Shown in pieces: positions 35,687 through 40,578 of a DNA stretch of 40,578 nucleotides (positions within the stretch are counted from its first letter, which is position 1; every line of letters begins with the position of its first letter). Position numbers and translations under genes: made by a program. The stretch is from Candidatus Thalassarchaeum sp. (GTDB taxonomy: Archaea > Thermoplasmatota > Poseidoniia > Poseidoniales > Thalassarchaeaceae): the NCBI GenBank assembly GCA_030748335.1, contig JASMMD010000011.1, positions 1 to 40,578 on the forward strand. Direction: 5' to 3'. Under the pieces are notes generated by a model. The model saw only the letters and a program-made list of their open reading frames with translations. It did not search any database and was not told where the DNA came from.

Positions 35687-36697
35687 GTGTTTGATTCGGG
35701 TGTCGTGGACAACCTAGGCAGACCTCTCAGGGACCTGAGGATATCCGTCACGGACAGGTGCAACTTCAGGTGCAGGTACTGCATGCCCAGAGAACGCTTC
35801 GGCGAGGAGCACACCTTTCTCCCTCGCAGAGCTTACCTGTCGTTCGATGAGATTGAGAAGGTCGTACTCGCTTGCAAACCCCTCGGCCTTGAGAAGGTCA
35901 GGATTACCGGAGGTGAGCCGTTACTCCGCCCCGATCTGCCCGATCTGGTTTCTAGGCTGAGTGCTGCGGGGGTCGAAACGGCACTGACCACTAACGCCTC
36001 ACTTCTGTCAGGTCAGGCAGAGAGGCTTGCTGAGGCCGGGCTCGACAGAGTCACAGTGAGCCTCGATGCGCTCGACCCCAAGACCCACGCCCAGATGACG
36101 GACAGCAGCATCCCCGTGGAGGCCGTGCTGGACGGGATTGAGGCTGCGGTCCGAGCAAATCTATCTCCCGTCAAGGTCAACTGCGTGGTGCAGAGGGGCG
36201 TTAACGAAGGCGAGATTTCCCCTCTCGTCCGCAGGTTCAGGGGAACGGGGGTCACTGTTCGATTCATCGAGTACATGGACGTCGGGAGGACCAACGGCTG
36301 GCAGCTCGGACAGGTCGTTCCAACTGCAGACGTCATAGCGTACCTCAAGGAGGAATTCGAGTTGGAACCGGTCGATTCGCAAAGGCCCAGCGACGTCGCT
36401 AGTCGGTGGGCGCACTCCGATGGCTCGGGGGAGGTCGGATTCATTTCCTCGGTGAGCGAGCCATTCTGCGGCGACTGCGTGCGTGCGCGGCTGTCAGCTG
36501 ACGGTAGACTTCACACCTGCCTGTTCGCTTCCGGGGGACACGACCTCAGGGCCATCATCCAGAATGGGGCCGATGGAGAGGCTCTCAGCGATGCCATAGC
36601 AGCGATATGGTCGAGGCGAGATGATCGCTACAGCGAACTGCGCTCAAAGAGGACCGCGGTTTTGCCAAGGGTCGAGATGTCCTATATCGGAGGCTGA
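35687..36697 (+). CDS. moaA: GTP 3',8-cyclase MoaA (molybdenum cofactor biosynthesis)
   Basis: Radical SAM enzyme that converts GTP to 3',8-cyclo-GTP, the first step of molybdenum cofactor synthesis. The 336-residue protein has the SAM-cluster motif CNFRCRYC (Cys25, Cys29, Cys32), the GGEP motif in RITGGEPLLRP, the second-cluster cysteines in FCGDCVRARLS and HTCLF, and the conserved C-terminal Gly-Gly. Length is standard. The start GTG at 35687 yields VDNLGRPLRDLRISVTDRC; it lies 86 bases from the start of divergent nfuA, which could supply clusters. Its last 16 bases overlap the convergent trm1. No other moa genes are in the window. Confidence 0.95.
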   Translation: MFDSGVVDNLGRPLRDLRISVTDRCNFRCRYCMPRERFGEEHTFLPRRAYLSFDEIEKVVLACKPLGLEKVRITGGEPLLRPDLPDLVSRLSAAGVETALTTNASLLSGQAERLAEAGLDRVTVSLDALDPKTHAQMTDSSIPVEAVLDGIEAAVRANLSPVKVNCVVQRGVNEGEISPLVRRFRGTGVTVRFIEYMDVGRTNGWQLGQVVPTADVIAYLKEEFELEPVDSQRPSDVASRWAHSDGSGEVGFISSVSEPFCGDCVRARLSADGRLHTCLFASGGHDLRAIIQNGADGEALSDAIAAIWSRRDDRYSELRSKRTAVLPRVEMSYIGG

Positions 36698-38013
36698 AGG
36701 TTCAGAGCCGCTCTGGCAATCTCGACCCAAGGCGCATCTGTCCTGAATGCCGGCTTGCCATAATGCGCAACCGCCGCACGGCTCCCGGTCTCGCACAGCG
36801 CCGTCACCATCCCCGATGGACTGGGAGGCGAGCCCGAGCCGAGCCAACTCGCCAAATCGTCGACCAGAATCAAGTGTGGCGCGTCGATTACCTCCGCCTC
36901 TCCCGAGATGTGCCTGACGCTGCGAGCCACCCTCCTACGCTCTCGCTCGAAGTCCCTGTCCGACCAGCCTACCGGATCGTCCTCGACATCGCTGGGACCG
37001 CAAATCCCGAGCGCGCGCTCCTCAGTCATGGATGCCATGGCGTCACTTTGCCCGAGTGAACCGATCCACATCGGCCCTGACACCCGCTTGTCGGAACGGT
37101 CGATTGGATGGGTGAGGGGGAGCATGCAATGCATGGGTAGCGAATCCAACTCAGTGTCCGGATGCATCCCGGCTTGTATCGACGAGGAGACCTCCTCAAC
37201 GGTCGGGGAAGCCACCCTCCATCCGAGCGACTCCTCGACCTCGTTGGCCTTCTCCACGCTCCGTCGAACGCGTACCGAGACCCTGAGGTGGTGAGACTCC
37301 CAGACCGACAGGAGCGGTTCGATTGCACGCTCATGCCGAGCAGCCGTCCTAGCTACCGTCGCCAGCAGCACCCTGAGGCCGGAGTCATGAGCTAGGCCAT
37401 CGGTCCTCACACGAGCACCGTAGCGGCGCAGTAAAGCGCTTTTCGAAGAGCCGGTGAGAGCCGCGCTATCGGTCGCGCTAATCTCGGCCACGCCCCTCTT
37501 GGCGAGGGACTGGATGGCGGTGTCAAGGAATGGGAGCGGGGACCCATACGGATCGATGTCGACCCAGTGCCGGCCATGTTCCAGCACGCTCTTGCGTAGG
37601 TCGCCCAGATGAGGCAACAACTCGCCCTCGCCGTGCTCAGGCGGGAACTCCTCGTGGCAGCGCATTGCCCATTCGAGCGCCACTGGGTCCATGTCACCCA
37701 TCGTCGCACTGATTCTAGCCGCGCTCTGTGCAGGCAACTCGTTCAGCCAGCGCCTAGCCCGCAGTCCGCTTGCCGACAACCCATCCAAAGCGTAAATCGC
37801 CCCTTCTCCGAGCAGCCCAGCCTCTATGCAGTGTTGCAGCAACAGCACGCTGCGGGTACGATTTCCCGACATAGCGGGGTTGTGGAACACCGCACCCTGA
37901 CCCTTCGCAGCCGGCCCCGGTCCCGATTCACTAGGGTCTCGAGATAGCCTGCACAGGGTGCGACCCTCCCGGTGCAGCACTCCGGGCCAGTCCTCGAGCT
38001 CGGATGCAACCAT
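36682..38013 (-). CDS. trm1: tRNA (guanine-26 N2)-dimethyltransferase Trm1
   Basis: Uses S-adenosylmethionine to form N2,N2-dimethylguanosine at position 26 of tRNAs, a modification of archaea and eukaryotes. The 443-residue protein has the family signatures: VFHNPAMSGNRTRSVLLL, ALDGLSASGLRARRWLNE (SAM site), VDIDPYGSPLPFLDTAIQ and ISATDSAALTGSSKS. Length is slightly above the archaeal average of about 380-400. ATG at 38013 is the natural start. The 3' end overlaps moaA by 16 bases. It is 48 bases downstream of purM on the same strand and may share its transcript. Confidence 0.93.
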   Translation of the reverse strand: MVASELEDWPGVLHREGRTLCRLSRDPSESGPGPAAKGQGAVFHNPAMSGNRTRSVLLLQHCIEAGLLGEGAIYALDGLSASGLRARRWLNELPAQSAARISATMGDMDPVALEWAMRCHEEFPPEHGEGELLPHLGDLRKSVLEHGRHWVDIDPYGSPLPFLDTAIQSLAKRGVAEISATDSAALTGSSKSALLRRYGARVRTDGLAHDSGLRVLLATVARTAARHERAIEPLLSVWESHHLRVSVRVRRSVEKANEVEESLGWRVASPTVEEVSSSIQAGMHPDTELDSLPMHCMLPLTHPIDRSDKRVSGPMWIGSLGQSDAMASMTEERALGICGPSDVEDDPVGWSDRDFERERRRVARSVRHISGEAEVIDAPHLILVDDLASWLGSGSPPSPSGMVTALCETGSRAAVAHYGKPAFRTDAPWVEIARAALNLQPPI

Positions 38014-38061: not shown

Positions 38062-39207
38062 CTAGTAGTGCTCGAAGACGACACTGGGGTCGGAGTGAGT
38101 GACTATTCTTCCGTTATCGTTCAGACTTCCGACTCTACGAGTCCCGGGAAGCCTCTGCGACAGCCATTCAGATACCGATTCGGCAGCGCTCTCAGAGACG
38201 GCCAGCACCATCCCCATCCCCATGTTGAAAGTCCGGTGCATCTCCCTGCTATCGACCGAGCCAACCTCGGCTATCCACGAGAACTCAGGATGCACTGGCA
38301 ACGGGTCGTCGATGTGCCAACCGAGACTGCCATGCAGCCTCAGCAGGTTCGAGAGACCGCCCCCGGTGATATGCACCATCGCCTTGAGGTTCCCGGAAGA
38401 GCATGGCCCATTGCCCTCCCGGCAAGCCAGTACCAAGTCAACGAGCGGATTAACGTAAATCCTAGTCGGATTGAGTAGGACCTCACTCAGGGAAATCTCG
38501 TCGGCACCCAACCATCTAGCTATCCGTCCGTCGTCATCCACATCGAATGGAGCAAACCCATCTAGAGATGCTCCGGATCGCTCAAGCACCGCTCTCACTA
38601 AGGTGTACCCGTTGGAGTGGATGCCGCTGCTTGGCAGACCGATCATGACATCCCCAGTCTCTAGTGCATCCCCTGTGATGGCGTGCCCTGCAGGGAACCA
38701 GCCGAGCGCCGTACCGGATAGGTCGAGTTCAGTCACGATGCCAGGCAGAGTCGCCGTCTCCCCTCCCGCTAGGGTTACTCTGGCCAGCCTGCATGCCTCA
38801 GCGAGCGAGGAACCCAGCGCCGAGTGAACCTCGGGGTCGGTCTCCGGAACCGCGATGTAGTCAACGAACGCTAGCGGTTCCGCGCCAACGCAGATGAGGT
38901 CGTTGACGTTCATGGCAACGCAGTCAATCCCAACACCTTGCAGCCATCCCGCCTGACTGGCCAACTGCAGTTTCGAGCCAACCCCGTCAGTCGCCAGCGC
39001 GAGCCTAGAATCACCGAACTCGATGATGCCCCCGAATCCCCCCGGCAGAGGGACAGGAGCGCCCCTCTCGCCGGGTGCCCTCACCGACGATCCCAGCGCT
39101 TCCACTAGGCTGGCTATCGCACGTCCCTCGGCATCGATGTCGACACCACTGGAAGCGTAGTCCATGGGCTCGTCTTCCACATTCGCACCGGATGAGTAGC
39201 ACCCCAT
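38062..39207 (-). CDS. purM: Phosphoribosylformylglycinamidine cyclo-ligase (AIR synthetase)
   Basis: Catalyses the ATP-dependent ring closure giving 5-aminoimidazole ribonucleotide in purine synthesis. About 381 residues. Hallmarks are MDYASSGVDIDAEGRAI near the start, LATDGVGSKLQLA (nucleotide site), CVAMNVNDLICVGAEPLAFVDY, GGETATLPG and SSGIHSNGYTLVR. The start is uncertain: ATG at 39207, after AGTGAGG, is preferred; ATGs at 39210 and 39165 are alternatives, and the frame runs on to 39348 through an A/T-rich promoter region that is unlikely to be coding. Usual family length is 330-350 residues. Divergent from the solute-binding lipoprotein. Confidence 0.93.
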   Translation of the reverse strand: MGCYSSGANVEDEPMDYASSGVDIDAEGRAIASLVEALGSSVRAPGERGAPVPLPGGFGGIIEFGDSRLALATDGVGSKLQLASQAGWLQGVGIDCVAMNVNDLICVGAEPLAFVDYIAVPETDPEVHSALGSSLAEACRLARVTLAGGETATLPGIVTELDLSGTALGWFPAGHAITGDALETGDVMIGLPSSGIHSNGYTLVRAVLERSGASLDGFAPFDVDDDGRIARWLGADEISLSEVLLNPTRIYVNPLVDLVLACREGNGPCSSGNLKAMVHITGGGLSNLLRLHGSLGWHIDDPLPVHPEFSWIAEVGSVDSREMHRTFNMGMGMVLAVSESAAESVSEWLSQRLPGTRRVGSLNDNGRIVTHSDPSVVFEHY

Positions 39208-39366: not shown

Positions 39367-40578
39367 ATGAAAAACAACAGAAAAATAATTGCAATGATGC
39401 TTACCCTGAGTATGCTAGCGGCTGCGTTCGCTGGTTGCCTAGGGGGAGATGATGAGCCCGAGCCAGAGCCCGAATGGTCTCTGACCGCTGCTCCGGACGT
39501 CAACCCTGTGTGGGTTGAGTCTGGATGGGACCCCATTATCCCCAACCTGAATGCCGGCGAGATGTGCGAAGCTATCATCTCGGCGATGACGAAGACGGAC
39601 GAGCGCGACCAAGTTGTCGACTTCACCAGGGCCTACTACACAAGTAGCCAGGGTGTAATCGGTGGCTCCGGTGCCGCAGCTATCTCTGCCGTTGGCGACC
39701 TGAACATGGCGGGCACGACAATCGGACTACAGTCTGGGACAACCTCAGACCTGTACGCTGCCGATAATCTGGCCGCAGCCACAATCAGCGCTTACGAAGA
39801 CTTCCCGTCAGTTATCGCCGCTTTGAATAACGGCGACGTGGATTACGCCATGGGAGACGCACCTGTTCTGTCTCTAGAGGGCGACCTAATGGTCACCTTC
39901 TCGGACGAGAACTTCGGTCTAGCCGTCCGTGAGGACTCCGGAGAGCTTCAAGCTGCTCTGGATGTCGCTATCGGCGCTGTTGTCGCCTCCGGAGAGTACG
40001 ACGCCATTTACGGCGCTTGGTTCGACGGAGCTGTCACACTTGCTGATGACACAACGGCTGACACAGCTACAGCATACCCGACCCCCTCTGAGGGAAGCGA
40101 CCTGACCCAGGTCCTTGAGTCCGGAGATCTGAGGCTGTGCACTGACCCGTTCTACCCGCCGTTTGAGGCATACGACGCAGACGGTAATGTGGAAGGCTTC
40201 GACGCTGACATGGCTGACGCCATCGTCGACGAGATCGCAGCCCACTACATGGGAACGGAGAACCCGATGTTCCAGGCACCTGTCTCAGCGACCACCAAGA
40301 TTGGTCTGCTGAACCCGCTAACAGGCCCGATCGCGGTTTACGCACCACCCTTCACATGGGCTGCGCAGGCCGCGATTGATGACCTGAACGCGGCTGGCGG
40401 AAACTTCGAACTGGTCGAGGCCGACTCTGGCTGCAGCGGCGATGTCGCTTCTGGAGCCGCCCAGTCCCTAGTGGACGCGGGCGTTGTCGGTGTCGCAGGA
40501 GCTGCCTGCTCCGGCGCCTCAATGGCTGCTAACGCGGTCCTGAACGCTGCTGGTGTTGTGCAGGTCTCGTACGCGAGC
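39367..40578 (+). CDS. Solute-binding lipoprotein with rearranged SBP type-3 and type-1 domains, 3' truncated by window edge
   Basis: 404 residues before the window ends; no stop is reached. A signal peptide with lipobox AFAGC puts the lipid anchor on Cys24. Residues 50-222 match an amino-acid-binding SBP family 3 domain from its middle to its end (WDPIIPNLNAGEMCEAIISAM, DERDQVVDFTRAYY, GTTIGLQSGTTSD, GELQAALDVAI). Residues 246-296 then match the missing beginning of such a domain (LESGDLRLCTDPFYPPFE, VEGFDADMADAI). From residue 308 a periplasmic-binding type-1 (LivK-like, family 6) domain starts (TKIGLLNPLTGPIA) and is cut off. So the type-3 domain is either circularly permuted or repeated with the type-1 domain inserted. 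It should bind amino acids or peptides for an ABC importer. Assembly error cannot be excluded. Confidence 0.85.
   Translation, partial: MKNNRKIIAMMLTLSMLAAAFAGCLGGDDEPEPEPEWSLTAAPDVNPVWVESGWDPIIPNLNAGEMCEAIISAMTKTDERDQVVDFTRAYYTSSQGVIGGSGAAAISAVGDLNMAGTTIGLQSGTTSDLYAADNLAAATISAYEDFPSVIAALNNGDVDYAMGDAPVLSLEGDLMVTFSDENFGLAVREDSGELQAALDVAIGAVVASGEYDAIYGAWFDGAVTLADDTTADTATAYPTPSEGSDLTQVLESGDLRLCTDPFYPPFEAYDADGNVEGFDADMADAIVDEIAAHYMGTENPMFQAPVSATTKIGLLNPLTGPIAVYAPPFTWAAQAAIDDLNAAGGNFELVEADSGCSGDVASGAAQSLVDAGVVGVAGAACSGASMAANAVLNAAGVVQVSYAS

Follow-up and report, generated by a model that had tools for sequence, protein, structure and literature searches.

The last gene of an archaeal contig raises the question of whether a family-3 solute-binding (SBP3) domain, with its parts standing in reversed order, is one complete domain that has been rotated. 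The window, by which we mean the whole stretch of DNA analysed (40,578 bases), is contig C2 of the 1.16-Mb genome of a Thalassarchaeaceae (Marine Group IIb) archaeon. Its lipoprotein gene runs from the ATG at 39367 on the forward strand to the contig end at 40578, where it is truncated with 404 residues readable. An original prediction had placed the body of the family-3 domain (residues 50-222) before the segment that normally begins it (246-296), with a type-1 binding domain starting at about residue 308, and had named a circularly permuted or interleaved domain, a tandem array with deletion and a chimeric assembly as possible readings.

Results

Domain order in the lipoprotein

The gene opens with a signal peptide (39367..39438, + strand) ending in the lipobox ..AAAFAGC, which was judged by eye from the sequence, without a predictor. 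Cys24 is the lipobox residue, for which lipidation is predicted, and orthologues keep the lipobox. A short acidic linker, GGDDEPEPEPE.. (39439..39495, +), leads into the binding domain; in several orthologues it has an extra Cys-containing segment, CMDATANNYN. A segment of the pattern C.D..A.NY...A...DGSC is inserted after the lipobox in L004, L009, L011, L014 and L018, and one of the same type sits between SBP3 and the type-1 domain (PBP1) in L046. In another family member (L026:3819-7709), an N-terminal zinc ribbon, a membrane helix and Asp-rich repeats replace the lipobox.

Two stretches of the window protein exceed the Pfam cut-off for SBP_bac_3 (PF00497; 90.6 bits against a cut-off of 26.4), and they come in reversed order, with profile positions 38-131 matched at 39499-40026 and positions 1-37 at 40129-40239. 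The C-terminal part of the domain, now first (residues 44-222; 39496..40032, +), holds beta2, the remainder of lobe 1, the hinge, the entire lobe 2 and the closing helices. This part also matches positions 66-250 of the Lys/Arg/Orn-binding family TIGR01096, for which the score of 145.4 bits lies below the curated cut-off of 256.35. The N-terminal part, now last (residues 242-292; 40090..40242, +), comprises the leading helix, beta1 and alpha1. Between the two parts the old C-terminus is joined to the old N-terminus by a linker of about 20 residues, ..LADDTTADTATAYPTPSEGS.. (40033..40089, +), with approximate limits set by the gap between two HMM matches. The inter-domain linker that follows, in the MGTENPMFQAPV region (40243..40284, +, placed by alignment), leads to the first type-1 (LivK-like) domain, of which only the start (40285..40578, +; PF13458 positions 2-98 of 343) precedes the contig end.

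An independent HMM of 227 positions was built from ten canonical SBP3 domains, all from outside the class of the window (Poseidoniia). It matched the window protein at positions 47-226 (residues 44-219, 104.9 bits) and again at positions 2-47 (residues 246-291, 30.7 bits), and the protein sequence written twice gave one unbroken match over positions 2-226 (136.4 bits). Because the two matches are complementary and the match in the doubled sequence is unbroken, each HMM position is covered exactly once, with no part of the domain lost or duplicated. The window protein contains a complete, naturally circularly permuted SBP3 domain with its new termini in the alpha1-beta2 loop; having its parts reversed, it is a permuted variant and not a standard member of family 3. 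Pfam and the canonical HMM agree on the order originally predicted, and the Peripla_BP_6 match begins at residue 310, as expected; the two predicted pieces exist, and their limits are corrected to about 44-222 and 242-292.

Conservation of the permuted order

The permuted stretch was found as one colinear match in 74 of the 319 genomes of the order Poseidoniales, in a count made by hand that excluded contig-end fragments unless two of them together spanned the greater part of the query. These genomes represent eight genera, all of one family (Thalassarchaeaceae), and this gene never has the ordinary order in them. The permuted order also occurs in L012 and L023, records that carry no MAG label and have single-cell-style names, and which we take to be single cells. 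Its presence in 74 genomes shows that the order is not an assembly error, and the pN/pS of about 0.15-0.32 in both SBP3 pieces indicates that selection preserves the gene in its permuted form.

Towards the contig end the window gene is a mosaic. Its type-1 part (window 40270-40578) is nearest to L009, L011, L014 and L018 (up to 100% over 75 bases), unlike its SBP3 part, which is nearest to L004 and L006; this could reflect either recombination between members of the genus or an assembly error close to the end of the contig.

Binding pocket, cysteine pair and predicted fold

All 17 tabulated family members retain the pocket residues S72, T75, R80, T125, D164, D260 and Y263. These positions were equated with residues of LAO and GlnBP, in which Ser/Thr, Arg, Thr and Asp make up the amino-acid pocket; S72, T75, R80, T125 and D164 of the window protein supply that set. 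Judged from these residues, the permuted domain may bind an L-amino acid.

Cys67 (39565..39567, +), at the start of beta3, and Cys258 (40138..40140, +), in beta1, are kept in the same 17 of 17 proteins and do not vary across an alignment of 22 family members; they lie at the places originally predicted. Since beta1 and the start of beta3 are neighbours in the SBP3 fold, the two residues are likely to form a disulfide across the permuted halves. All window-type domains and the canonical members of the class have the pair; MGIII proteins and those from outside the class lack both residues.

Modelled by AF2 as an isolated domain with 22 family members, the permuted SBP3 reached a pLDDT of 79 and a pTM of 0.65, with the five models spanning 79 to 58. 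The best Foldseek hits were SBP3 amino-acid-binding proteins (AncCDT-1, LAO and the GlnPQ substrate-binding domains), with a best E of 1.5e-9 and TM of about 0.33-0.56; these low TM values probably arise because the alignment is order-dependent and the chain is permuted. In the full-length AF2 model, with 12 sequences, the SBP3 region had low confidence (pLDDT mostly 25-45). The isolated-domain model and the Foldseek hits are consistent with a permuted domain that folds like an ordinary two-lobed amino-acid-binding protein.

Full-length protein and operon

Complete orthologues of about 1,030-1,060 amino acids consist of the lipobox, the permuted SBP3 and two Peripla_BP_6 domains, after which they stop; no further SBP3 piece was found downstream in them. 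The presence of a second type-1 domain and the lack of more SBP3 argue for permutation and not for interleaving or duplication, two alternatives that the original prediction had considered. The type-1 domains are in ordinary order and match LIV-binding proteins.

The orthologous loci share the synteny MoaA-Trm1-PurM-lipoprotein-LivHM-LivG-LivF. In the window the upstream part is formed by MoaA (35687..36697, +), the tRNA methyltransferase Trm1 (36709..38013, -) and the divergent neighbour PurM (AIR synthase; 38062..39171, -), all assigned by Pfam and conserved synteny. The downstream LivH-LivM is one fused chain of about 1,250-1,340 amino acids; that at L037:4220-7957, of about 1,250 amino acids, has a long middle region. 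The C-terminal part of LivHM, LivG and LivF of the window genome lie at the end of contig C27, from which the gap between the ends of C2 and C27 is estimated at about 3.5 kb. The components of a Liv-type (HAAT) importer, namely a LivK-like binding protein, a BPD_transp_2 permease and two ATPases, are thus present, split in the window's own genome between C2 and C27, and the importer may transport branched-chain or other amino acids. With an SBP3 domain, two type-1 domains and a LivHM/G/F operon, the architecture goes beyond the two binding folds first recognised.

In Poseidoniaceae (L069, L072 and L071), lipoproteins of the form lipobox-PBP1-PBP1 or lipobox-PBP1, with no SBP3, precede the same kind of permease, and genus g10 of the Thalassarchaeaceae (L070) likewise has lipobox-PBP1(-PBP1) with no SBP3; these PBP1-only lipoproteins of L069-L072 were identified from translations. 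Given that the same importer occurs there without it, the SBP3 module looks inserted between lipobox and PBP1, and is probably a later addition.

Relatives with other domain orders

Elsewhere in the phylum (Thermoplasmatota) the ordinary SBP3 order is standard. L027 and L043 have ordinary-order SBP3 domains that share 54-55% identity with the window domain across its main block; the L027 domain aligns to the window domain in two blocks, with 54% and 59% identity, which are in reversed order in the window. Both lie within large LDLa-repeat archaeal proteins (L027:5065-7746 and L043:3484-7140), where halves of the permuted linker seem to be left at both ends. The genomes G032 and G297 each carry both the ordinary and the window-type order.

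A different cut is seen in four MGIII proteins, in which HMM positions 117-223 come before positions 3-116, so that lobe 2 is first. The MGIII lobe-2-first domains of L049, L050, L053 and L063 keep the pocket, and at the loci L078 and L079 the lobe-2-first gene is oriented divergently from a permease-ATPase pair. Diverged lobe-2-first domains that have lost the Arg and Asp of the pocket also occur in MGII, including contig C4 of the window genome. The C4 protein (L041:3793-4794) has a C-terminal membrane helix and has lost pocket residues, and its gene adjoins a GlnQ-type ATPase and a 739-aa permease with a YCF48-like region. The lobe-2-first genes adjoin a GlnP-type permease and a GlnQ-type ATPase, those of MGIII being read by resemblance.

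The MGIII lobe-2-first proteins and the window type have similar linkers (..LTDDT.A.TA.AYP..), which suggests a common permuted ancestor, a point that the tree does not decide. The tree places all window-type domains in a single group (98/88), with the two canonical members of the class as its sister (96/86). It requires three changes of order, and a lobe-2-first stage followed by a beta2-first stage is no more parsimonious than independent permutations. In genus g87 (L054, L055 and L060), three to four tandem SBP3 domains are fused to a GlnP-type permease; tandem arrays such as exist in this phylum are the kind of intermediate from which trimming at both ends would give a permuted domain.

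Discussion

Our results indicate that a complete family-3 domain has been circularly permuted in a surface lipoprotein of an abundant marine archaeal family. Four observations support this reading: the HMM matches are complementary, the order recurs in 74 genomes, the closest unpermuted relative is 54% identical and has the ordinary order, and a conserved Cys pair spans the two pieces. We propose, with a probability of roughly 0.78, that the gene encodes the lipoprotein of a Liv-type (HAAT) importer, in which the permuted SBP3 between the lipobox and two LivK-like domains folds, binds an L-amino acid and supplies LivHM-G-F. A Cys67-Cys258 disulfide would lock the domain between beta1 and the start of beta3, and the domain would widen or concentrate the supply to the neighbouring permease. 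The module would have arisen when an SBP3 was duplicated in tandem and then cut back at both ends, perhaps by way of a lobe-2-first permuted ancestor, and would then have been inserted into a lipobox-PBP1-PBP1 lipoprotein.

Some features of the locus could be taken to mean that an assembly chimera or misjoin made the reversed order, as the window contig terminates within the gene, like many related contigs, and its last 300 or so bases resemble lineages other than those nearest the SBP3 part. We give this negligible weight, since the same order recurs in 74 genomes from many independent assemblies, L012 and L023 among them, and both SBP3 junctions fall inside a stretch evenly similar to L004 and L006; for the SBP3 order, an artefact is refuted by these genomes. 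A tandem SBP3 array with internal deletions, and more SBP3 downstream, has just as little chance of describing the present gene. Such arrays are a plausible ancestor in this phylum, but they belong to another genus (g87), and in the complete orthologues just two SBP3 stretches are present, followed by a pair of type-1 domains with which the protein ends, which rules out an array as the present state.

It is also very improbable that the pieces are half-domains with separate partner chains, split or domain-swapped, instead of one permuted domain. The linker between them and the lack of a confident fold for this region in the full-length AF2 model would agree with half-domains, yet the pieces are exactly complementary, the invariant Cys pair spans both, purifying selection acts on them to a similar degree, and modelling of the domain by itself predicts a single SBP3-like unit. 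Less easily set aside, and still unlikely, is the idea that the SBP3 module acts as a sensor or as a scavenging tether and passes nothing to the importer. Poseidoniaceae operate the same LivHM/G/F operon without the module, and the canonical relatives of the module are parts of large LDLa-repeat proteins. On the other hand, the module is fused to the binding protein of a complete importer, all the tabulated amino-acid pocket residues are kept, and Pfam finds no signalling domain in the lipoprotein. We therefore retain the permuted importer lipoprotein as the preferred reading, in which both the ligand of the SBP3 module and its hand-off to the Liv permease are conjectural and drawn from sequence.

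SBP3 proteins normally serve HisM/GlnP-type permeases and not Liv-type ones, which raises the question of whether an SBP3 domain can pass its substrate to a Liv-type permease. A broader scenario, possible and in our view rather doubtful, is that the family-3 domain has been rotated more than once in one archaeal class, with the lobe-2-first form ancestral, the beta2-first form derived from it and a few reversions in LDLa proteins, and that the beta2-first module opens the Liv importer to another kind of substrate. With the canonical order and two different cuts, and with arrays in other parts of the phylum, this archaeal class is a natural series for testing the duplication-and-trimming route to circular permutation. 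That the Cys pair occurs as a unit and the pocket is kept suggests that a permuted family-3 fold can still function.

We found no published natural circular permutation of a family-3 SBP in the literature, which is weak evidence given that most subscription papers were outside our reach; the arrangement of a permuted SBP3 with two leucine-type domains has apparently not been described before. In metatranscriptome work on the sea, livK and aapJ are reported to rank with the most highly expressed Thalassarchaeaceae genes, and livK is co-located with its transporter genes (PMC9723583). That livK is probably the gene described here, in which case the annotation hides a third, permuted binding domain.

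The closest known case is TpMglB-2 (Tp0684) of Treponema pallidum, a naturally permuted type I sugar-binding lipoprotein whose authors proposed a class 'Ic/Bc' and suggested that tethering may have favoured the permutation (PMC4990184). Like the window protein, it is a lipoprotein tethered to the membrane, has a permuted substrate-binding domain and probably serves an ABC importer. It differs in having a single domain of the type I/cluster B sugar fold with a different cut, whereas the domain described here belongs to family 3 by profile and by Foldseek, and so falls outside type Ic/cluster Bc.

Compared with SBP family 3 itself (PF00497; TIGR01096; 'cluster F' or type II SBPs), the window domain has all positions, the pocket and the predicted two-lobed fold, and is set apart by its rotation, with the cut in alpha1-beta2, by the fused type-1 domains and by the extra Cys pair. 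LivK/LivJ (PF13458) of Liv importers share the type-1 domains and the LivHM-G-F operon; in the window type, two such domains follow one another behind a permuted SBP3, and LivH is joined to LivM in one chain. More than one binding domain per chain is also found in GlnPQ-type importers with tandem SBP3 domains (6h30), in their case one fold repeated in canonical order and fused to a GlnP-type permease. Two binding folds do occur here in one lipoprotein, as originally predicted, but the novelty claimed for this holds only in part, as ionotropic glutamate receptors also combine a type-1 and an SBP3-like domain in one polypeptide. In those eukaryotic receptors, the order of the two domains is the reverse of that in the window protein, and the SBP3-like domain is split by the channel.
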